Origin: Diplonema papillatum
Lineage: Eukaryota > Euglenozoa > Diplonemea > Diplonemida > Diplonemidae
Length of the DNA stretch: 64,000 nucleotides
NCBI GenBank assembly: GCA_030068145.1
Contig: JAPJBO010000841.1
Span: 1-64,000 of the forward strand
Direction of reading: 5' to 3'
Shown: positions 1 to 33,664 of the stretch, in pieces
Layout of the letters: each line of letters starts with the position of its first letter
Numbering within the stretch: the stretch's first letter is position 1
Made by a program: the position numbers and the translations under genes
Notes under the pieces: model-generated
What the model was told of the DNA's origin: nothing
Seen by the model: the letters and a program-made list of their open reading frames with translations, nothing else
Databases searched by the model: none

Positions 1-2097
1 CTCAATCGCCCGGGAGCGATACCCCGAGGGACCGGTTTTGCGCACAAACAATCCCCCTACAATAGCCAGTGTGCCCGGCCAACTTGCAACGAGGGCCCCC
101 CCGCCAGGGTGGAGGGACCCATCCCGGGGCTAAGTTTCCAGGCTATCCCTCGGGATCTTCTGGATAGACTGAGCCGAGCACCCGAGCTCAACCCGGAAGC
201 CCAATGGGGAAGGCTGGGGGGTGGACGCAGCAGGGAAACCCAGCAGTGGGGGCACGCCTATCGACTAGGTGAACCCCCGATCAGACTGGAACGGGATATC
301 CCCGAGGGGCCCCTGAAAGAAGCGGCGGATCTCATACGTGACCGCCTTGGGTGGGAACCGGACCAGTTGCTGGCCAACTGGTACCGGAGGGGAGTGGGGA
401 TCAACCCCCACAAAGACCAGAGAGAACTGGGTCCGAGGGTAGCGACCATATCGCTCTTGAGCGACACGGTCATGGAATGGGAGAGGGGGAGCCGGAAAGT
501 GAGAACCCCTCTGCCGGTCGGCACACTGTGCCACATGGAAGGCGAGGCCAGGAACCTGTGGACACACGGGATTCGTCCCGATGATGTCGCACGCGACCGG
601 GTCTCGCTGACCTACAGGGCCGTGCGCGAGGCCGCCTCCCAAAGTTTGCAAGGCCGGGACACCCCGCAAGAAACTCCCATACCCCCCCCGCCCAGCCCTC
701 AGGCATCCACTGCACCCCCCCAACATCAGTCCAGCCCCGCGCCACGGACACTTTTGCTTCATCACCAAAGAACTCTACAATCAATCAAAGAATCAGCAAG
801 ACAGCGGCTGATAACCGCGGGGGACGTCGAACAAAACCCTGGTCCCGGCCGCGCGGAGATGAGGTTCGCGACGTTAAACGTAACCAACCTACTACAGTAT
901 CTCCCAGCGGCCGACGCGGTGGAAGCGGATCTTCTCTGCTGCCAGGAGGTGACACTCCTTCCGTGCAAACGGGTGCAGGCGGAGGAATACCTGCGGAAAT
1001 GGTGCTGCCACTGGGGTCTGCCACCACCCGGAAGACTCTGTAGGAACTCCGGTAGTCGCTCGACGATGAACGCCGCGAACGGAGGGCTCTCCACTCTAGT
1101 ACTGAGACCGATACCGGCGTACGATACGATGACGGCGCTCTCGCACGCAGCAATACGGTCCCCGGACCGAGTGAGCCATACGGTAGTAGCAACAGGGGCC
1201 GGCAACACGTTCGTGCACGTGTTCAATGTCTACTGCCCTTCCGGAAACGGGAGGGCGGAGAGCGAGGAGCGTGAGGACATGCTGGAGAAGATCCTCTTCG
1301 CAGCGGCGGATAGCCTCGGTGACGTCCCCATAATGGTGATGGGTGACCTGAACACAGAAGAAGACCGGTCCCCTGTACTGCGGAAGGCACTAAGGAATGG
1401 GTGGTCCGACGCAGCGGAACTGCACCATGCGCGTACCGGTGACACACCACCACCACCGACCTTTACTAGCGCCCGGACATCGGGCACGAGGATCGACCGC
1501 ATACTCCTCAACCGAATAACGACGGGAGCTTTCCGCCAATGCGTCACCACCGCGGTGAACGTGCCGGGACACCGGCTCGTGACAATGACCCTGGACATTG
1601 CGGCGCTGCGCCAAATCGTGTGGCGATTTAAAGTACCGCGGGAAATCTCTACGGAGGGGGGACCCAAGTGGGGCCTCTCGGACACAGAAGCTTACAGGGA
1701 AGCCGTACAGAGACTGGCCAACTCCGATTTCGCAGAACGGCTGGCAGCACAGCGAGTGGAAGAGGCCTGGCTCGAGTGGTCACGAGTCAGTGAGCAGTAC
1801 TTGCAGGATGCCTTCGGAATCCCTGCGGAAGAAAGGGGAAGAAGTACCGGCCGGGGGATAAAGACGTCACCTAAAAGAGTCTGCATCACGGCAAGCACTG
1901 CGAGCGACGGGTCGGGGGCGGCGAACAGCAGACAGCTACGGCTCCGGAAGACCATCCACAGGATGGAACGCATCTGCAGCTACCTTGCGCAACGGCGCGG
2001 GCCGGAGGCAGGTATCCCGTTGCTGGCAGAACAGCAGGCGGCTGGCACAGGCGTGCATGAAAGATGGCCAAGGGACAGAAGGATTCCCGGATCATGA
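1..2097 (+). CDS. LINE A ORF1: AlkB dioxygenase - 2A - APE endonuclease polyprotein (partial at left edge)
   Basis: The frame is open from base 1; the first GTG is at 109 and there is no in-frame ATG before the AlkB domain, so the true start is probably off the window. Numbering from 109 as residue 1: residues 85-172 carry the complete AlkB signature, namely N90-W-Y92, H101-K-D103 (iron), a G-T-L-C-H-M-E-G-E segment leading to W-T-H153 (iron), and R164-V-S-L-T-Y-R170 (2-oxoglutarate). A Pro/Ser-rich linker follows, then the 2A core at 238-246. From about residue 250 an APE/EEP endonuclease has T-L-N, C-Q-E, N-V-Y, G-D-L-N and T-R-I-D plus a late G-H. AlkB enzymes oxidatively remove alkyl groups from nucleic acids; APE nicks target DNA for target-primed reverse transcription. 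2A would release AlkB from the endonuclease during translation. The ORF ends at 2097, out of frame with the RT. Confidence 0.9.
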   Translation, partial: LNRPGAIPRGTGFAHKQSPYNSQCARPTCNEGPPARVEGPIPGLSFQAIPRDLLDRLSRAPELNPEAQWGRLGGGRSRETQQWGHAYRLGEPPIRLERDIPEGPLKEAADLIRDRLGWEPDQLLANWYRRGVGINPHKDQRELGPRVATISLLSDTVMEWERGSRKVRTPLPVGTLCHMEGEARNLWTHGIRPDDVARDRVSLTYRAVREAASQSLQGRDTPQETPIPPPPSPQASTAPPQHQSSPAPRTLLLHHQRTLQSIKESARQRLITAGDVEQNPGPGRAEMRFATLNVTNLLQYLPAADAVEADLLCCQEVTLLPCKRVQAEEYLRKWCCHWGLPPPGRLCRNSGSRSTMNAANGGLSTLVLRPIPAYDTMTALSHAAIRSPDRVSHTVVATGAGNTFVHVFNVYCPSGNGRAESEEREDMLEKILFAAADSLGDVPIMVMGDLNTEEDRSPVLRKALRNGWSDAAELHHARTGDTPPPPTFTSARTSGTRIDRILLNRITTGAFRQCVTTAVNVPGHRLVTMTLDIAALRQIVWRFKVPREISTEGGPKWGLSDTEAYREAVQRLANSDFAERLAAQRVEEAWLEWSRVSEQYLQDAFGIPAEERGRSTGRGIKTSPKRVCITASTASDGSGAANSRQLRLRKTIHRMERICSYLAQRRGPEAGIPLLAEQQAAGTGVHERWPRDRRIPGS
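820..846 (+). other. 2A ribosome-skipping peptide (GDVEQNPGP)
   Basis: The codons read G-D-V-E-Q-N-P-G-P, an exact match to the D-(V/I)-E-x-N-P-G-P core of class 2A peptides, preceded by L-I-T-A-G. Known 2A peptides make the ribosome skip the last Gly-Pro bond, here between residues 245 and 246. It sits exactly between the AlkB part and the first strand of the endonuclease (M-R-F-A-T-L-N-V), so two separate proteins would be made from one reading frame. 2A-like peptides are known in trypanosome L1Tc/ingi and some animal LINEs. Confidence 0.9.
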
Positions 2098-3581
2098 GGA
2101 GGCGAAGCAGCTTCTCACGGCATTGCGGGAAGAGACGAGCAGGCTCCTGACAACCATCTGCGCCGGACGCGCTGAGCCGTCGGGGGTGTTGCGAAAGGGG
2201 GCGGGAGTGACTGCAAATGTTGACGAGATGGACGAGGTGCTGAACACTGCGTGGGACCCTATCCTGCGTAAGTACAAGGACGGGCCAGAGCCGGAGTACG
2301 AGCCGTTTCGGGATCGGTTCCGGGATCACATCGGCCCACATATGATGGAAGCCGGAACAATCACGGGGGAGGAGCTACGAATTCTGCTGAGGAAGAAGCC
2401 GAAGAAAAGCGCGTCAGGGGTGGATGGCTGGCGTATGGCTGAACTGCGGGAGTTGCCGCTCCCCCTGCTGAATGCACTTGCGGACGTCATGAACCTGGTC
2501 GAAGCAACTGGAGACTGGCCGGCAAGCATGACAACTGCGCTGGTGTCGATGGTGCCGAGTCAAGACCCGCTGCACACAAGACCGATAACCGTCACATCCG
2601 CCGTGTACCGCCTATGGGCCTGCCGCAGGCTGGCGGACATAGTACTGTGGCAAGAGGAATGGATCGAAGAAGGACAGAAAGGCTTTCGACCAGGTCACCG
2701 GATCGAGGACGTCTTGATGGAAATTGGGCTCGAGATGGAGGACGCCTTGTTAGACGGGGAGCCGCTCTACGGTGTGGCGCTGGACTTCCGGAAATGCTTC
2801 GACATGGTCCCACGAGAGATAGTACTGCGCTTAGCCGAGGACTTAGGATTGCACAATCGGGTTCTCAAGCCGCTGAGGGCTATCTACAGACTGCTCGCGA
2901 GACGCTTCAAGCTACCATTAGGGGTGGGCAGGGAGTTCAGTGTGACCAACGGTATCCTTCAAGGGTGCCCTGTATCCGTCATACTCATCAATGCCCTGCT
3001 GTCGGTAGTGATGAAAGCGGTCAAGAAAGAAGCGGAGGGTGTGAGTCCAAAGTCATACGCGGACGACGCCACACTGCTGTCCAGGCTGTCGGAGGCCGCC
3101 CTGCAAAAGGGAGTGGACGTAGTAGACGAGTTCTGCACACTCACCGGTATGGAGCTAAACCTCCAGAAGACGGTCGCGTTCTCGACGAGACGTAGGCATC
3201 AGTCGACTCTCAAACTCCGCAGCGTGGATGCGCTGCTGCGGTTTAGCAAATCCGTCAAGTGCCTCGGGGTCCTAGTCTCGACGGCGAAGAATAAGACGGA
3301 AAGGTCCGACTCGGAGAGGGTGGAGAAGGCGGCTGCCCTGGCGGAAGGCCTCCGCCATGCGCCGTTCCGGTACGAAAAGCGGGTCCGGATTGTGCAGTCG
3401 AATGTGCTACCGGCGGCGCTGTCAGGCTGCTCTTTCGCGCCGGTATCGAAGGTGGCGATGAAACGGCTGACGACGTCGGTGATGGGACTGATCTGGGGTG
3501 CCAACCCGAAGCGCGCGAGGGAGATGGTCCTAAACTTTCAGGAGAATGGCCACCTGACGGATCCCGGTACATGCCTAGCAT
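1985..3581 (+). CDS. LINE A reverse transcriptase (fingers and palm)
   Basis: This frame overlaps the end of ORF1 by about 110 bases. It opens with a TTG rather than an ATG, so it is either reached by a frameshift from ORF1 or is the result of a mutation. The RT core is clear: K-K-S-A-S-G-V-D-G-W at the start of the fingers, Y-G-V-A-L-D-F-R-K-C-F-D (motif A, about 2768-2803), N-G-I-L-Q-G-C-P-V-S-V (motif B) and S-Y-A-D-D (motif C, aspartates at 3061-3066). All three catalytic aspartates are present. The thumb region is cut at 3581 by the inserted element and resumes at 4288. LINE B shares the same wording around these motifs, so the two belong to one family. Confidence 0.9.
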
Positions 3582-3615
3582 GCCCCCCCCCCCCCCCCCC
3601 CACACACACACCAGA

Positions 3616-3780
3616 GACAAACCAGACTCACACCGCAGTCCTGTCTGCAGACACTCAGGTTCCGCGCTGATGATGGTCCGCCTTATGTGTCCGTGGCTTA
3701 AAGGACCGAAACACGGCGCAGACGGGACCAGTGCGGTGTTGAGCACATACCCATTCCAAGCACGTTCTTGCAATCCCCCC
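3616..3780 (+). repeat. Left 165-bp direct repeat of the insert in LINE A
   Basis: Starts GACAAACCAGACTCACACC and ends CTTGCAATCCCCCC; identical by eye to 4116-4280. Together with that copy it brackets a 335-bp unique centre. Confidence 0.85.
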
Positions 3781-4115
3781 ATTCCAGTAGGGTACTTCGC
3801 GTAACGCGACTTGCTGCCCTCAGCACGCAGGATTACTTCCTCGCATTCTTTTCCTTTTGGTACTTCAACCATTGGTGCTGCACACGGCAACCCCATGTCC
3901 ACTGTGCTCTGCGGAGTTTACTTCGCAGATTGCCACCGTAAAAAGAAGACAAGTCAGTGCTGCCTAGCGAGTCGCAGTCACAATCAGGGCGAGTGCCCTG
4001 AGTTTTTTAACTGATTGCTCAGACACGGTTGTAGGGGCCTTCTCCCCGTGACGGATTCGCCTGTGCTCTAGTAGCACGGGTGGTCCTGGCTGTGACGAGC
4101 TACGAACAGCCGCCT

Positions 4116-4280
4116 GACAAACCAGACTCACACCGCAGTCCTGTCTGCAGACACTCAGGTTCCGCGCTGATGATGGTCCGCCTTATGTGTCCGTGGCTTA
4201 AAGGACCGAAACACGGCGCAGACGGGACCAGTGCGGTGTTGAGCACATACCCATTCCAAGCACGTTCTTGCAATCCCCCC
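4116..4280 (+). repeat. Right 165-bp direct repeat of the insert in LINE A
   Basis: Second copy of 3616-3780, offset by exactly 500 bp, running into the right-hand C tract that borders the target duplication. Confidence 0.85.
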
Positions 4281-4287
4281 CCCCCCC

Positions 4288-5463
4288 CCTAGCATATAGG
4301 GTGACGACAGCGTTTTACGCGGCGTGCGAGAGGTTGCCACGACTGCTGCCTCTGATGGAGAGCATCCGGGGAAGATACGCCGAGGGGGACCTACCCCTGG
4401 GGCCAGTTGGACTGGCGATGAGGAGCATGGGGAGTGTGGACACGTATGGGGACCCGGGCCCCTGTCTCGCACGCTGAGGAATGGTGCAAGATATGACCCG
4501 TTAGCCTCGGCACCTTCGAAGAGGGGACATGAAGTTAGGGCGGACTTGAGGGCGAAGACGTGGTCCCGACTGGTGGCGAGGCGGCCGGGATTTGAGGGCA
4601 TACAGAGAGCCGACCTGGAGCGGACGAACACCTTCTGGAGGATGCGTGAATGTCCCGCGCACACCGCGAGGCTTATACGTGTAGCGTTGGCGGGGGGGGT
4701 GAACACGGCTGAGTACACGTCGCGGATGAGGCAGGCCGGAGCTGAGCCGCAGGCGCCCAGCTGCAAGCACTGTGGAAGCGGCGACACCGAGGACGAGAAA
4801 CACGTATTCTGGGACTGCGGAGCGTACTCGCACATACGGCGACGAGAGGCACATGCCGAGCTGATGGCAGCCAACCGGGCCGACTGGCCCAGATGCACGC
4901 TGGAACACGGAGTGGTAGTACCCGAGAATGCCCAATTCTCGAGGCGGCTCCAGGAGATGATGGCTGAAATCCTTGCGGAACGGGCTGGGCTCGAAGCACG
5001 TGGCTGGGTGGCCAGGAACCCCACGACCCCCTGGTCGAGAGCGAATGCGATGCCTGCCGAGAAATTTGACCACCCCTTCGCGCGGATTGCCCCGGCATGG
5101 ACGTGGGAGCGGAACAAGACCTGGGGACTACCGACGTTTTATGCGTTGGTAGCGTGGCTGTCGGACATGCAATGGACCGAGAACGGGCAGGTGTCAATGC
5201 TGGAGCTTGCGATCGACTTTGAACTCTTCTCGGGCCTCAGCATGCCGCTGCACGGGAATGCGCCGAAGGGGGTGAGAGAACGGGGAAACGTCCTGCGCTG
5301 CATGATGAGCGCGTTGGACAAGCTGGCGGCACAGCAAGGGCTGGGAAGCTGCATGAGAGGGGAGAGGGTGTGCCCGACGACGTCGCTGTCGTTCATGGGC
5401 ATCACGGGGATATCGGGTATACGGCCCAGGCCACTACGGGGACGATACTTGAGGAACAAGTGA
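4288..5463 (+). CDS. LINE A post-RT region: thumb remnant, zinc knuckle and connector domain
   Basis: Right after the insert the RT frame continues (L-A-Y-R-V-T-T-A-F) to a stop at 4472-4474; an overlapping frame open from 4324 then carries the downstream homology to 5463, so the frame changes near 4430-4475. The protein has a zinc knuckle C-K-H-C...H-V-F-W-D-C (about 4765-4820), matching C-P-Y-C...H-L-F-W-E-C of LINE B, and a segment around V-S-M-L-E-L-A-I-D-F-E-L that aligns with F-V-E-L-A-V-D-F-E-L of LINE B. In LINE B an RNase H domain follows this motif; here it does not, and the reading goes nearly straight to the Cys/His modules. Zinc knuckles after RT are usual in LINEs and are thought to bind nucleic acid. 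Confidence 0.75.
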
Positions 5464-6422
5464 AAGGAAGCGATGTAGGGACGCAGTGCCCGACGTACCC
5501 TGACTGGACGATCGGGAGAGCGGCGAGGTGGGCCCTGCCTGCCCCACCACAACTGCACCCAGACCCCGTGCATATGCCGGGTGTCGGTATAGAGAAGGCA
5601 CTCGTCACGTGCGCGACCCATCACAAAGGGAAGTGTGAGGCGTGCAGAGCACTCGTCCGAAGGGACGTTCCCACGGTAGAGATGTGCTGCCGGCACCATC
5701 ACCACGCGAACGATGGGCAGCCGATCGCGGTGTGCACAGAGCACAGCACGACGAAGTGCGGCGAGTGCAAGACGGCGGCGGCGTGTTGCCGCAGCGGGCA
5801 TCATGCCTGCCGCACGCATGGCAGAGGAACCTGCCAAGAGTGCAAAAGGCTCCCTACGCTGACGCAGAGGCGACCGGCGGCATGTTGCAGCCGCGGCCAC
5901 CACCAGTCCAACAAGCCGAACGTCCAGTCAACCCCCGGACGCAACAAGAAGAAGAGGCCCTCCTCACCCACCCAGGTGGGTGTACAGCGGGAGACGCCAT
6001 TAGGAAAGCGAGCGGCGCGAGCGCCGCTCGCGGCAACGAAAAAGGAGACGGCGGCAACCGGACGGGCGACCAAGAGGCCGCCACCAACGCCAGGAACCAG
6101 CGAACGACCAGCGCTGAAGAAGAGGGTGCTTGGCACCCCGAAGGAAGGCCCGATCGCCGGCCGCAAGCGGAAGAAGACGAAGGCGACCACCCCCGACTCA
6201 GGGGTGCATCGAAGGAAGAAGAAGGTACCGAGGGCAAGCAGCTCTCAGAAACGACCGGGGACCACGGGCACACCAACGCCCTCGAAAGTGAAAAACGGAC
6301 ACACGTGCCCGCCCTCGTACTCGCCGACTCAGTCTCTGGAATCGCAAGAAAGCCAAACCCCGCTAGCTCCACAAATGCTCGACCTTGACGACGCAATGGC
6401 AGGTGACGACGTCAACCGATAA
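5370..6422 (+). CDS. LINE A C-terminal region: three tandem Cys/His modules and a basic tail
   Basis: The frame overlaps the previous one by 94 bases and ends with TAA at 6420-6422. Between 5610 and 5903 there are three modules of the form C-x2-H-x4-C-x2-C-x(5-13)-C-C-x(1-4)-H-H: C-A-T-H...C-C-R-H-H, C-T-E-H...C-C-R-S-G-H-H and C-R-T-H...C-C-S-R-G-H-H. Eight potential metal ligands each suggest two zinc ions per module. A long Lys/Arg/Pro/Thr-rich tail follows. The same module is found twice in LINE B and in its relatives at 33859-34051 and 34094-34690. I do not recognise it as a named domain; nucleic-acid or chromatin binding is an inference from the ligands and the basic tail. Confidence 0.75.
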   Translation: MPDDVAVVHGHHGDIGYTAQATTGTILEEQVKGSDVGTQCPTYPDWTIGRAARWALPAPPQLHPDPVHMPGVGIEKALVTCATHHKGKCEACRALVRRDVPTVEMCCRHHHHANDGQPIAVCTEHSTTKCGECKTAAACCRSGHHACRTHGRGTCQECKRLPTLTQRRPAACCSRGHHQSNKPNVQSTPGRNKKKRPSSPTQVGVQRETPLGKRAARAPLAATKKETAATGRATKRPPPTPGTSERPALKKRVLGTPKEGPIAGRKRKKTKATTPDSGVHRRKKKVPRASSSQKRPGTTGTPTPSKVKNGHTCPPSYSPTQSLESQESQTPLAPQMLDLDDAMAGDDVNR

Positions 6423-6988
6423 CCTGACTTTCAAGGCAGTGCATGTTAATCCATGTGGTTCATGTACTTAAAAGAACTCAATGCTAAACAAACATAACGT
6501 GGGCGGCGCCGAAGCTTTACCAGCTTCAGCTGACACCATTTGCGCACTTAACCATGGTTAAGAAGACGACTGAAAGCACAGACACAAAGATAGCTCAAAG
6601 CATTTGCAAAATAACGCCTCTAGGCAAAAACCCGTTTTCACATTCCTTCCCTGGTCAAGATCTATGGCTGCTCTCTGGGCGCCGGGGATGCTGGACTGAA
6701 AATAATGGCAGCCTTTTGTCGGCCACGTCGGCACAGTCGAAGTCCATCGACCGTCTGCGCGTGACTACCGTGCATACAGACAAGGGAGGGTAGTTCATGA
6801 ATGGGAGGAGCGGAGGAGGCAAATAATACGGCGAAGCGAGAATTTGTCTACGTACTCCTCTTTTTTCTCGCGATAGCTCTCTCCCCTGTTAACAAAACTA
6901 CGCATTTCTTCTACCAAGTCTTGGAAATATCTGCGCCACTCGTACATCCTCACGACACGTGGCTCATGACTCACGATCTACTCGTGAA
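6423..6988. other. LINE A 3' flank and non-coding spacer
   Basis: After the last LINE stop there is no poly(A) and no (CA)n tail that would mark the 3' end. A stretch near 6613-6663 (GCAAAAACCCGTTTTCACAT) recurs in V-ATPase intron 1 near 49110, so part of this is dispersed repeat. ACAAAACTACGCATTTCTTC near 6893 also recurs near 58893. No gene is seen. Confidence 0.4.
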
Positions 6989-30097: not shown

Positions 30098-33000
30098 GCG
30101 GACCCGTTTTAACGTGGTGCCTTCCTGTACGAGAGACGTCCACGCTTCTTCCGGTTTCACGTTACTGCAGATGCTCCCCCAGGCTGTGCGTGGGGGTCTG
30201 TGTTTTTCTGTGGGTGATGCCTTTGGCAGCAATGCACGATCTCCAGGCCGCCCGCTGTGCAATCACCGCAGCGTCCCAATCTGTGGGCAGGGCAGAAGAG
30301 CATTCGTGGTCGCAGGCCGTCCCCCTCACGGTGGTGCTGTTTGAACCGGCAACAGGTTTCCGCCGGCAAACGCTTCTTTGTACAGTCCTTGCAGCGTGGT
30401 TTCCGGTGTTGCACACATATTTCTCCAGGGCGGGATGTGTTCACCGCGTCTTCCGGTGCCTTCTTGGGTGGTGACCCTCTGCGAGGTCCAGCGCCTGTTA
30501 CTCTCTCTACCATCTCCACTCTCTGTTTCCAGTTAGTCTTTCCTTGTTCCCATCCTGCAGGGTAGGCTTTCTCCGGCAGATAGGTTGCCGCCCACGTCAG
30601 GTGCTGCGGGTACAAGTTGGTCTCCGCCTGCGCTGTGCCCATCTTCTGCACATGTTCCCGTATGCCTAGGATCACCTCGTCCGTCTCATCCGAAAGTTGC
30701 GCCCGCCGCGACGCTCCCCTTACAACTGATCCTCCGACGGCAGTTAAGATCGTTGTTGTTGCTTCGTGGCCACTGAACCACTGTCGTCCAGTTACCTTCT
30801 TGAATGCTGAGCCTAACTCAATTAGGCTCATCGCTTTTCCGAGTGCGGAGGCACGGAAGGACTGCAGCTCCGCTTCCTGCTGCTCCCGCGTTGGTCGTTG
30901 GCCTTGCACGAGGTCCATTGCCGCGTTGCTCAGAGCATCCGCATCGGTGTTTTGCTCGCGCTTCACGTGTTCTACCCGCAGGGAAAGCCGCTGTCGCAGG
31001 GCCACTATTTTTGCCACCGCTCGCGTCAGCAATGGCTTCAAGTCTTCTGAACACGCCAATTGCCGCGTGGTTTGCCCGACTACCAGCGCCGAGTCTCCGC
31101 GAATTACACACTGCGCTCCTTCCGTTCCTTCAGCATCCTCCAGGAGCTGCAGCCCCGCGAGAAATCCCTCGTACTCGGCCACGTTGTTACTGCGCACGTT
31201 TGGCAGCGGGAGCACTATTTGTGCGTACTTGACGCCCTCCTTGTACAGTACCGCTCCTGCGCCCGCCACGGCAAAGGCAGTCCCGTTGGCCCTCGCTCCT
31301 CCGTCAAAGTAGATTGCAACATCGCAACTAGCTGCGGCGTCTTCTGGCAGAGTCTGTCGTGCTGTTGTGGCCTTCTTCGTGTGTTGTGGCACCGCCGTGT
31401 AGTATCTACTTTTGAGCGTTGGGAGGCGGCGTCCGGTGCGCAACTCGAAGTCCACCGCCAACTCCACAAAGCTTACCCCGAGTTCGTGCCCCGGCGGCGC
31501 CCATTTCAATTCCCTCAGCCAATCCGTGAACGCCATCCACATCTCCGGGCCGTACTTCCACTGGGTGAGTACTGCCGAAGGCGCAACGTCCGGCACAGCC
31601 AGTTTGTGTGGTTCTGCTGGTTTCCATCGTCGCGGATACTCAAGCGTTCGGTGGTGCCGTGTAGACCTGTCCAGCATGTCATCTGCCCCTTGACGTGCAG
31701 ACAGCACCTCCACGAAGTAAAAGTGCAGTTTCTCAAGCAGCTGAAGCCTCTTTCCCTGTTCGGTGGGTAAGAGATTCGGGTCGTGGAAAGCGGGAGCCAC
31801 CCCGCACAACCGTAAGCATGGCGGCCACCTGTGTTGCACGGTTCTTAGCTCCCCGTACTTTGAGCGTATTGTCTCCCAGGCGGGGCATTCCCAAAACAGG
31901 TGTTCCACCGTCTCCGGGACCTGTGTGTCACAGTAAGGGCACTCGCTTGCGTTTAGTCCTGTTCGTCCCGTGACCGGCGTGGCTCCTGCGATTACCGATC
32001 TCAGCAGACCGGCCTGGTACGCGGTGAGTGGTGAGTTCCGCATTTCCAGAACGTGCCTCGTTGCTGCGAAATCGACTCCGCCCTGGACGCCTCCATAGTC
32101 ATTTCCCCTCCTTGTCGCCAGTCGCGCCATTTCCCGCAAACGCAGGGCATGTCTCAAGTCATGTTGCAGGAGGCGCGAATTACCCAGGACCGCTGCATCA
32201 TGCACGACTCCTTCTCCTACCTCATTCACGTACGCGACGCTTGTCGGGGTCACCCACCTCCACTGGAGTACGTTGAGCGCTTCTTTCAGGAAAGCGAAGG
32301 GCCCATGTAGCCTTGCCAGTTCGTCGTTGTGGGCCCATGCTGTTTCCGCCAACGCTCGGGCGTAGTCCCACTTTTGGACCTGTTCGGCCCAGGTTGTGAC
32401 TCTCCTGTAGGCCGGTACGACTCCCGGGTCCAGCCTGTGCCCGTGGTGTAGGATGTGTAGCACTGCTTCCTGAGCTCGTCGTGGCGGCCCCGTCCATACC
32501 GCCTCCGTAAATCCCCTTCTCAAGCGGTCGACTTCCCCTTTGCCAATCGCCGTTACGGCTGCACCGTAGAACCTCTTTGCCCCTGCTGTCATGCTTACGG
32601 CAAGGTCTCGCGCACTAGCCGGTAGCGGGAGGCAGGCCGCTCTCTTCAACACTGTCTCGGCCATCGCGTTTCGCTGCGCCACCCGCTTTGACGGTCGGAG
32701 CGGCTTGCTCGGTTCAACTTGCTTCGTCGTGAGCATTACTCCAAGTACGTCAAAGGTTGTTCGCCTTGCTATCGTCTCCGGCTGTACGTCCGCCTCTTCG
32801 TTCCCTTTGCTCTCGGCGTACACTATCTGCTCCGGAGCGTCCCGCGCAGTTGTGAACCACAGGGACTTCGACTGCGTACACACCTTCATTCCTGTCAGCC
32901 CCGCAAATGTTCCTGACCTCTTGGCTGCCTCTTGCAGCTTCGCGAGGCTCTTCATCAACGCGTAAACGTCATCAACGTAAGACAACGGAATGGTCGCCTC

Positions 33001-33664
33001 GATGTCTGCTACGTGCCGCATCCAGACACTGATAAGAACGTTTATCAGTATCACGCTCAATGGACACCCCTGCATAATTCCATTAGTCGGTACGAAGCCT
33101 TCTCCGACCACGGCTCCAATTCGGAAATGGCGCTGCATGCTGGAGTAGGCCGCTCGCAGAGTTCTCAGCACTGTTGGGTGGAACCCGAGCTCCTCCGCTA
33201 GCCGGAAGGCGATATCTATCGGCACCGAGTCGAAGCACTTCTTAAAGTCCAGCCCAAGACCGTAGAGGGGATCCCCCGTCACGTGCGCCTGCTCTATGAG
33301 ACCTGCGAGGTGCCAGACTAGGTCGTCCGTCCCATGTTTTTTCCGGCACCCGTGCAGCCCGCTGGGCGCTACCTTATCCATCCATTCCAAGGCCTCTTGT
33401 GCACGGATCGCCGCCCAGACTCTGTACAGTACCGGTGTGACAGATATTGGCCGCTGCGATAGCGGGTCTCCTGTGCTCTCGGGCTTCGGCAAGAGGTGCA
33501 GAATCGCGTGCATCAGTTGTTCTGGCCATTGCCCCTCGCTCTCGACTCGGTTCATCGCTTCAGCCATTAGTTGCAGGACTTCGGCGGGTAGTTGTCGTAG
33601 CTCGAAGACACGCCACGCGTGCAGTCCGGGCGAAGAGGTCGTCTTCATTCGCTTGAGTGCTGCG

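Follow-up and report, generated by a model that had tools for sequence, protein, structure and literature searches.

An AlkB dioxygenase domain between an in-frame stop codon and a 2A peptide in an APE-type LINE family of Diplonema papillatum

Transposable elements that carry enzymes of nucleic-acid methylation have been described in several lineages. Ty3/Gypsy elements of the orchid Phalaenopsis encode an ALKBH5-like m6A demethylase that is active on single-stranded RNA (PMC9289625), and retrotransposons with a DNA methyltransferase (DNMT) occur in charophytes and, in hundreds of copies, in the dinoflagellate Symbiodinium (PMC5890265). Long interspersed nuclear elements (LINEs) of the trypanosome L1Tc type carry a 2A peptide (Heras 2006, cited in PMC4981915). 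Here we describe, from a 64,000-nucleotide stretch of Diplonema papillatum DNA (the window, C841:1-64000, which starts at the first base of the contig), a LINE family in which an AlkB-type dioxygenase domain is joined to a 2A peptide, an apurinic-type endonuclease (APE) and a reverse transcriptase (RT). The host is a diplonemid of the Euglenozoa and not an alveolate, as an earlier sequence-only reading of this DNA had supposed.

Like the orchid elements, the Diplonema LINE is a retrotransposon that took up an AlkB domain; the orchid elements, however, are long terminal repeat (LTR) elements with AlkB in an additional open reading frame (ORF), whereas in Diplonema the domain is found in an APE-type LINE, a second LINE type and Helitrons, and in the APE-LINE it lies between an in-frame stop and the 2A. 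The trypanosome elements are likewise euglenozoan non-LTR elements with an in-frame 2A, but the accessible part of the citing paper mentions no AlkB in them and lists for INGI an RNase H that Pfam does not find in the Diplonema LINE. The DNMT elements are also retrotransposons with a nucleic-acid methylation enzyme, yet they add cytosine methylation, whereas the AlkB class removes methyl groups. Matches to predicted structures further suggest a likeness to the RNA-virus polyproteins and giant viruses that carry AlkB, which are selfish elements too, although their replication machinery is unrelated. Neither an AlkB LINE nor an AlkB Helitron was found in the open-access literature that we searched. 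Transposon-borne methylation enzymes are already known, and what appears to be new here is the occurrence of AlkB in three element classes together with two predicted recoding events in series.

In the window, positions 1-2097 of the plus strand (frame 1) form a single open frame of 698 codons, compared with a mean of 176 and a maximum of 353 for the longest plus-strand runs in 200 mononucleotide shuffles of positions 1-6500. Pfam recognizes 2OG-FeII_Oxy_2 (PF13532) at residues 110-206 (E 1.6e-12) and Exo_endo_phos (PF03372) at residues 296-505 (E 2.8e-9), and the complete AlkB signature, the 2A core and the APE that the sequence-only reading had placed in one frame are all there. A protein search returned nine matches, all from D. 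papillatum, the top two with 99% and 94% identity over 42% and 40% of the query.

Other copies of the AlkB-APE LINE, whose existence had been put forward as a check on the window copy, are abundant in the same genome. The exact AlkB motif C-H-M-E-G-E-A-(R/S) occurs at 225 sites and the exact 2A core pattern at 231, with no match to either reversed control. For 82 of the first 100 2A sites listed, an AlkB motif lies upstream on the same strand; the distance is 291, 294 or 297 nt, each a multiple of 3, in 80 of the 82, and 298 and 280 nt in the remaining two. A PF13532 search of the assembly matched all 150 candidates scored (of 250), giving at least 150 AlkB domains of all kinds, some of which are other AlkB genes, and many of which lie in open frames near 2,000 aa. 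At loci L009-L019 and L024-L026, the AlkB motif, the 2A and the RT YADD motif stand in one frame of 1,843-2,046 aa, and Pfam found AlkB, APE and RT in both LINE ORFs scanned (2,002 and 2,046 aa). Among the matches listed, 79 of 119 rows (120 of APE type in all) have frames of at least 1,980 aa; the 15 APE-LINE copies studied further were hand-picked for frame length and are not a random sample. AlkB-2A-APE-RT, with intact frames of 1,992-2,046 aa, is clearly a real multi-copy family and not a one-off fusion.

The APE upstream of the RT in one frame and the RNA-derived copies (five with spliced-leader 5' ends, see below) are those of an APE-type non-LTR element, and in the PDB the RT matches human LINE-1 ORF2p best (E 1.4e-20). 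No RNase H profile follows the RT in the 2,002- or the 2,046-aa ORF at E 0.1, so that this mark of the ingi/L1Tc clade is missing from both. A search for AlkB-LINE proteins in 1,166 candidates about 1,101-3,503 aa long gave three matches, all from Diplonema and none from outside it.

The AlkB domain itself appears to be maintained. All 15 APE-LINE copies examined keep its ligand motifs N-x-Y, H-x-D, H and R-x-S-x-T-x-R; they are the window copy, for which intact iron and 2-oxoglutarate ligands had been claimed, and 14 others. The same ligands are intact in the five second-type LINE and Helitron copies. Between the subfamilies represented by L009, L016 and L018, the AlkB domains align over 170 codons with zero gaps, with dN/dS values of 0.160 (bootstrap 0.09-0.27), 0.157 (0.10-0.24) and 0.235 (0.13-0.44). 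In the same comparison APE gave 0.16-0.17, RT 0.04-0.08, and the linkers flanking AlkB on both sides 0.5-0.9. Judged by these ratios AlkB is under purifying selection between subfamilies, at a level near that of APE and with its ligands conserved, which bears out the selection that the sequence-only reading had expected of a functional domain.

Iron ligands, the Arg pair, profile and fold all place the domain in the AlkB superfamily. PF13532 scored above the cut-off in the window, LINE and Helitron AlkB proteins scanned, and an AlphaFold2 model of the L009 homologue reached a mean pLDDT of 89.9. The solved structures closest to this model are ALKBH6, ALKBH2, ALKBH8 and ALKBH5 (query TM about 0.7-0.8), with ALKBH3 also among the matches; the closest viral models are proteins of a pithovirus and a megavirus. 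A profile search of the PDB ranks human ALKBH8 first (3thp, E 9.8e-16). The nearest 108 proteins of fitting length share 25-43% identity and are mostly unnamed; the named ones are AlkB or alkylation-repair dioxygenases, bacterial with a few fungal and protist ones. The substrate cannot be told from these structure and profile matches.

Two other functions have to be weighed against this background. Several AlkB enzymes act on single strands, and the domain could repair alkylation damage on single-stranded intermediates (LINE RNA or cDNA, Helitron single strands) rather than serve as an anti-silencing device; the names of the nearest proteins, the presence of ALKBH2 and ALKBH3 among the structural matches and the occurrence of AlkB in both RNA-based and DNA-based elements would fit such a role. 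Our data hold no sign of unusual alkylation in Diplonema, however, and related LINEs manage without AlkB, so that we consider general repair unlikely. The match to ALKBH8 raises instead the idea that AlkB modifies wobble uridines of tRNA in the manner of the AlkB domain of ALKBH8, and thereby favours decoding of the element mRNA, possibly even the UGA read-through that the LINE seems to require. A close profile match does not fix the substrate, though, Pfam finds no methyltransferase in the ORFs scanned, and at two Helitron and three second-type LINE loci no long ATG-started ORF lies in frame before the stop, so that there would be no read-through to serve; we regard a tRNA-directed role as highly improbable.

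The sequence-only reading took AlkB for the leading part of the polyprotein. The longer copies correct this, since all 11 loci L009-L019 have upstream of AlkB, in the same frame, an ORF1 of 526-703 codons counted from its first ATG. The C-terminal end of ORF1 has Cys and His residues spaced like zinc ligands, which are invariant in six aligned sequences; a Pfam scan of ORF1 gave no family beyond rows at chance level. ORF1 is separated from the downstream frame by one stop, which is always TGA followed by CT, in all 19 examined loci that keep ORF1. These comprise the 11 loci with AlkB and eight of AlkB-less families (L029-L032, L035 and L038-L040); outside the count are L024-L026, where the element is cut off or truncated upstream of AlkB, L033 and L036, which have other sequence there, and L034 and L037, which are without an in-frame 2A. 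The ORF1 sequences fall into four groups, namely L009, L013 with L031 (100% identity), L038 (52% to L013), and L016 with L018 (80%), the remaining comparisons giving 25-38%. When the stop was written as NNN, all genome sites matched, 64 in one search and 45 in the other, had TGA there; these searches miss sites with more than two mismatches in the flanks.

In nine of nine APE-LINE copies no Met precedes the AlkB core, the first one falling after H-x-D. Single gaps in the stretch between the stop and AlkB are multiples of 3 in 2 of 2 cases between L009 and L016, 5 of 5 between L016 and L018, and 6 of 8 between L009 and L018; the measuring procedure makes the total length a multiple of 3, which was therefore not used as evidence. 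Gaps relative to L013, a copy with a mosaic 5' part, do not follow this pattern. L013 and L016 are 98.6% identical from AlkB on, yet their ORF1s share no long DNA match, and that of L013 is the ORF1 of an AlkB-less family (100% to L031), so that 5' mosaics exist. In human cells UGA CUA has been described as a motif of high read-through (PMC4359377). The AlkB copies therefore combine a leaky UGA-CU context, a conserved open downstream frame and the absence of an alternative AUG. From the TGA-CT shared across ORF1 groups, the lack of a Met before the AlkB core, the frame-keeping gaps and the UGA CUA precedent we infer programmed read-through: AlkB is probably made as an extension of ORF1p that the 2A separates from APE-RT.

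The 2A cores in the copies examined are LLTAGDVEQNPGP, LITAGDVEQNPGP and LLSAGDIEQNPGP, all of the form D(V/I)ExNPGP, and by ribosome skipping they would part ORF1p-AlkB from APE-RT. The earlier proposal that the 2A lets AlkB act apart thus stands in one half, as a 2A does lie before APE-RT, and fails in the other, as read-through would join AlkB to ORF1p.

AlkB might instead be made by non-AUG initiation, by re-initiation or after removal of the stop by an intron, since read-through is a prediction and non-canonical introns are reported in diplonemids (PMC12621601). The frame, however, speaks for read-through: in diverged ORF1 groups the TGA-CT stop of ORF1 lies in frame with AlkB, and the single gaps listed above mostly keep that frame. 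An intron is further opposed by five copies (L015, L017, L018, L019 and, with a small difference, L011) that start with a 38-nt sequence, which we take to be the Diplonema spliced leader (SL), followed by element DNA. This sequence plus GTA occurs 218 times in the genome, partly as tandem repeats spaced about 1,240 bp apart, an arrangement that SL RNA genes would show, and the genome paper gives the SL RNA exon of Diplonema as 39 bp (PMC10161547). The five copies seem to be descended from trans-spliced RNA and still hold the TGA, which argues that intron splicing had left it in that RNA. We rate these other routes to AlkB as rather unlikely.

AlkB is also found in two other kinds of element of this genome. 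Helitron ORFs L023 and L022 have an N-terminal AlkB (PF13532) and a Helitron Rep domain (PF14214, E 8.5e-38 and 5e-38), and a second LINE type has an N-terminal AlkB, RVT_1 and, with a score under the Pfam cut-off, an OTU-like domain. The latter LINE is probably of the restriction-enzyme-like (REL) endonuclease type (R2/CRE-like), an assignment read from an endonuclease-like motif after the RT that has no profile match. In both the Helitrons and the second LINE type, AlkB has its own ATG and no in-frame ORF1 before it. The eight element AlkBs form one clade with a support of 99 in a quick tree search, of which only this grouping was used because of long branches among the presumed host genes L001-L007. 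Between the two LINE types AlkB is 78% identical in protein and the RTs 21%, and long DNA matches (>150 bp, E 1e-20) are confined to AlkB (about 340-520 bp, 78-81%). AlkB dN/dS is 0.19-0.29 for APE-LINE copies against L021 and 0.23 between two Helitrons. Among the 150 matches listed of 294 candidates, 120 are of the APE-LINE type, 22 of the second LINE type and 8 of the Helitron type, a split made by identity band with domains checked in the loci examined. At C6, C364 and C1171, the second-type LINE AlkB stands in open frames of 4,080-4,088 aa. Two proteins, P0004 and P0014, are named tRNA (carboxymethyluridine(34)-5-O)-methyltransferase by NCBI; the name is probably wrong, since Pfam finds only AlkB in P0004, and P0014 holds the part of the second LINE type that spans AlkB, C2H2 and the OTU-like domain.

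AlkB-less LINE families related to the AlkB LINE also exist. In L029-L032 and L038-L040, where the absence of AlkB is read from the 101-154 residues between the stop and the 2A, a 2A precedes APE, and other families seem to have an OTU-like domain in this place. The gene model P0002 is 94% identical to the LINE of the window from just before the 2A and has the OTU-like domain in place of AlkB, a label that rests on Pfam OTU scores of 18.7 bits (E 0.0027) for P0002, 20.5 for L021 and 20.6 for L028, compared with a cut-off of 23.3. With the OTU-like stretch as query, 150 matches were listed of 1,063 candidates, in frames of up to 1,871 aa, and 16 of those listed cover the whole query through the 2A; among these copies only P0002 was read for its LINE part.

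P0002 bears on a third possibility, namely that a LINE landed by chance downstream of an AlkB gene and that the joint frame is a decaying passenger, since a LINE part so similar to that of the window is joined there to another domain. The N-terminus and 2A of P0002 nevertheless recur whole in those 16 of 150 listed matches, which makes them a repeated module as well. A lack of other AlkB copies, or neutral decay of AlkB, had been named in advance as signs of such an accident, and the genome has neither: AlkB sites number in the hundreds, long frames are intact, and three diverged subfamilies have low, purifying AlkB dN/dS. A chance fusion is accordingly rejected as next to impossible.

Intact elements are thus, as read from their sequences, organized as ORF1, a UGA-CUN stop, AlkB, 2A, APE and RT in a single frame, which a spliced leader precedes in some copies. 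With moderate confidence we propose that AlkB is a selected accessory dioxygenase of the APE-LINE, a read-through tail of ORF1p that demethylates element nucleic acid. Ribosomes would either end at the UGA, giving ORF1p, or read through it and add AlkB as a tail, whereupon the 2A would split ORF1p-AlkB from APE-RT. ORF1p may then place AlkB on the RNA-protein particle of the element itself, where it would oxidatively demethylate single-stranded nucleic acid of the element (at m6A, m1A, m3C or similar marks) and so counter methylation-based control by the host, or alkylation that blocks reverse transcription or translation. Helitrons may use their AlkB on mRNA or single-stranded DNA, and its presence there argues against a role limited to reverse transcription. 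A wider version, which we put forward tentatively, holds that AlkB is a portable counter-defence module that moved among the APE-LINE, the second LINE and the Helitrons and erases a host methyl mark, with its dose set by serial UGA read-through and 2A skipping and with the OTU-like domain as an alternative in the same slot.

A number of observations weigh against the proposed role and mode of expression. The AlkB-less families carry an ATG downstream of the ORF1 stop, could begin translation at it and so need no read-through. The copies matched with NNN at the stop are near-identical and add little, and the comparison between ORF1 groups thus weighs more. No shared RNA structure was found after the stop (z -3.41 to +1.90 across six sequences). 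RNA binding by ORF1p is weakly suggested by some weak RRM rows, from a model with a pLDDT of 61 and no PDB match at E 0.001 or better. Close pairs are uninformative on AlkB selection, with dN/dS of 0.80 (0.20-3.66) for L009-L012, 1.04 (0.31-3.50) for L016-L013 and 0.69 (0.10-3.20) for L016 and the window copy. ALKBH8, the best profile match, is by its PDB entry title a tRNA uridine hydroxylase and not an m6A demethylase. Since related families are without AlkB or have the OTU-like domain, AlkB is not essential to these LINEs. Among the first 100 of the 225 AlkB motifs listed, 9 of 91 (contigs C1-C332) are without a downstream 2A, four of them (C6, C65, C142 and C233) being the second LINE type by identity, and 18 of the 100 listed 2A sites are without an upstream AlkB motif, 5 coinciding with OTU-like copies and 13 unexplained.

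If the proposal is true, several transposon classes of one protist keep a methylation-erasing enzyme, which would mean that such methylation restrains transposons there, and this is directly testable; the LINE would also be a natural construct with stop-codon read-through and 2A skipping in series. The Diplonema genome paper takes the dozen AlkB-type homologues that it counts to point to regulation by methylation in the host (PMC10161547). Most AlkB matches in this genome are parts of transposons, and that count should be taken with caution.

The element in the window is a decayed copy of this family with its 5' end cut by the contig start, so that ORF1 and the stop codon before AlkB lie outside the window. 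Its parts are listed in Table 1. Because of the 11 bp absent after position 2009 relative to the intact copy L013, the RT lies in frame 2.

Table 1. Parts of the AlkB LINE copy in the window
Feature	Position	Strand	Basis
Tail of low-complexity linker between the (missing) ORF1 stop and AlkB	1-108	+	Frame; aligns to L013 from 3170 on; 5' part cut by contig start
AlkB (2OG-FeII_Oxy_2) domain, about 175 aa	109-633	+	Pfam E 1.6e-12; alignments A1/A2; AlphaFold2 model of L009 homologue, mean pLDDT 89.9
N-W-Y, 2-oxoglutarate contact motif	376-384	+	N94, Y96 invariant in alignment A2
H-K-D, first two iron ligands	409-417	+	H105, D107 invariant in alignment A2
Distal His, third iron ligand	565-567	+	H157 invariant in alignment A2
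R-V-S-L-T-Y-R, 2-oxoglutarate/substrate arginines	598-618	+	R168, S170, T172, R174 invariant in alignment A2
Pro-rich linker between AlkB and 2A, fast evolving	634-768	+	dN/dS 0.68-0.79 between subfamilies
2A (StopGo): leader, then core D-V-E-Q-N-P-G-P (823-846), in which skipping is predicted between Gly (841-843) and Pro (844-846)	769-846	+	Motif; 231 genome-wide core matches, reversed control 0
APE-type endonuclease	886-1515	+	Exo_endo_phos E 2.8e-9
11 bp absent compared with L013; frame change	2009-2010	+	Alignment; tblastn frames of P0001 and P0003
78 bp absent compared with L013	2146-2147	+	Alignment to L013 5326/5405
Reverse transcriptase domain, frame 2 in this copy	2576-3271	+	RVT_1 E 2.9e-21
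Insertion of about 700 bp interrupting the LINE; identical 165-bp direct repeats 3616-3780 and 4116-4280	3582-4287	+	Alignment to L013, tblastn
C-terminal part of LINE ORF, mostly frame 1; zf-RVT match below cut-off	4288-5463	+	Frames, Pfam, tblastn
Cys/His-rich C-terminal region, frame 3 here, homologous to end of P0005	5436-5831	+	tblastn
3' part and 3' junction of element	5832-6507	+	Aligned 3' ends of 15 copies

Copies are often arranged head to tail, with the 3' end of another copy just upstream (5' ends of L010, L017, L018 and L019), and 12 of 15 3' junctions have ACGTGGGYGG followed by a varying hairpin-like sequence. The head-to-tail copies and shared 3' junctions suggest site-specific insertion at a repeated sequence. 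An Rfam scan of three LINE loci gave no match for the 3' hairpins. The gene model P0015 (DIPPA_14024) ends in an AlkB-LINE fragment with ligand motifs, which may be an exaptation or an artefact of the gene model. Elsewhere in the window, positions 31432-33663 of the minus strand hold the RT and C-terminal region of a second, diverged LINE with about 28-40% identity to relatives of the AlkB LINE; the genome PF13532 table has no AlkB match there. The insertion that interrupts the AlkB LINE resembles a small LTR-like element, with a target duplication of about 8 bp as judged from overlapping alignment ends.

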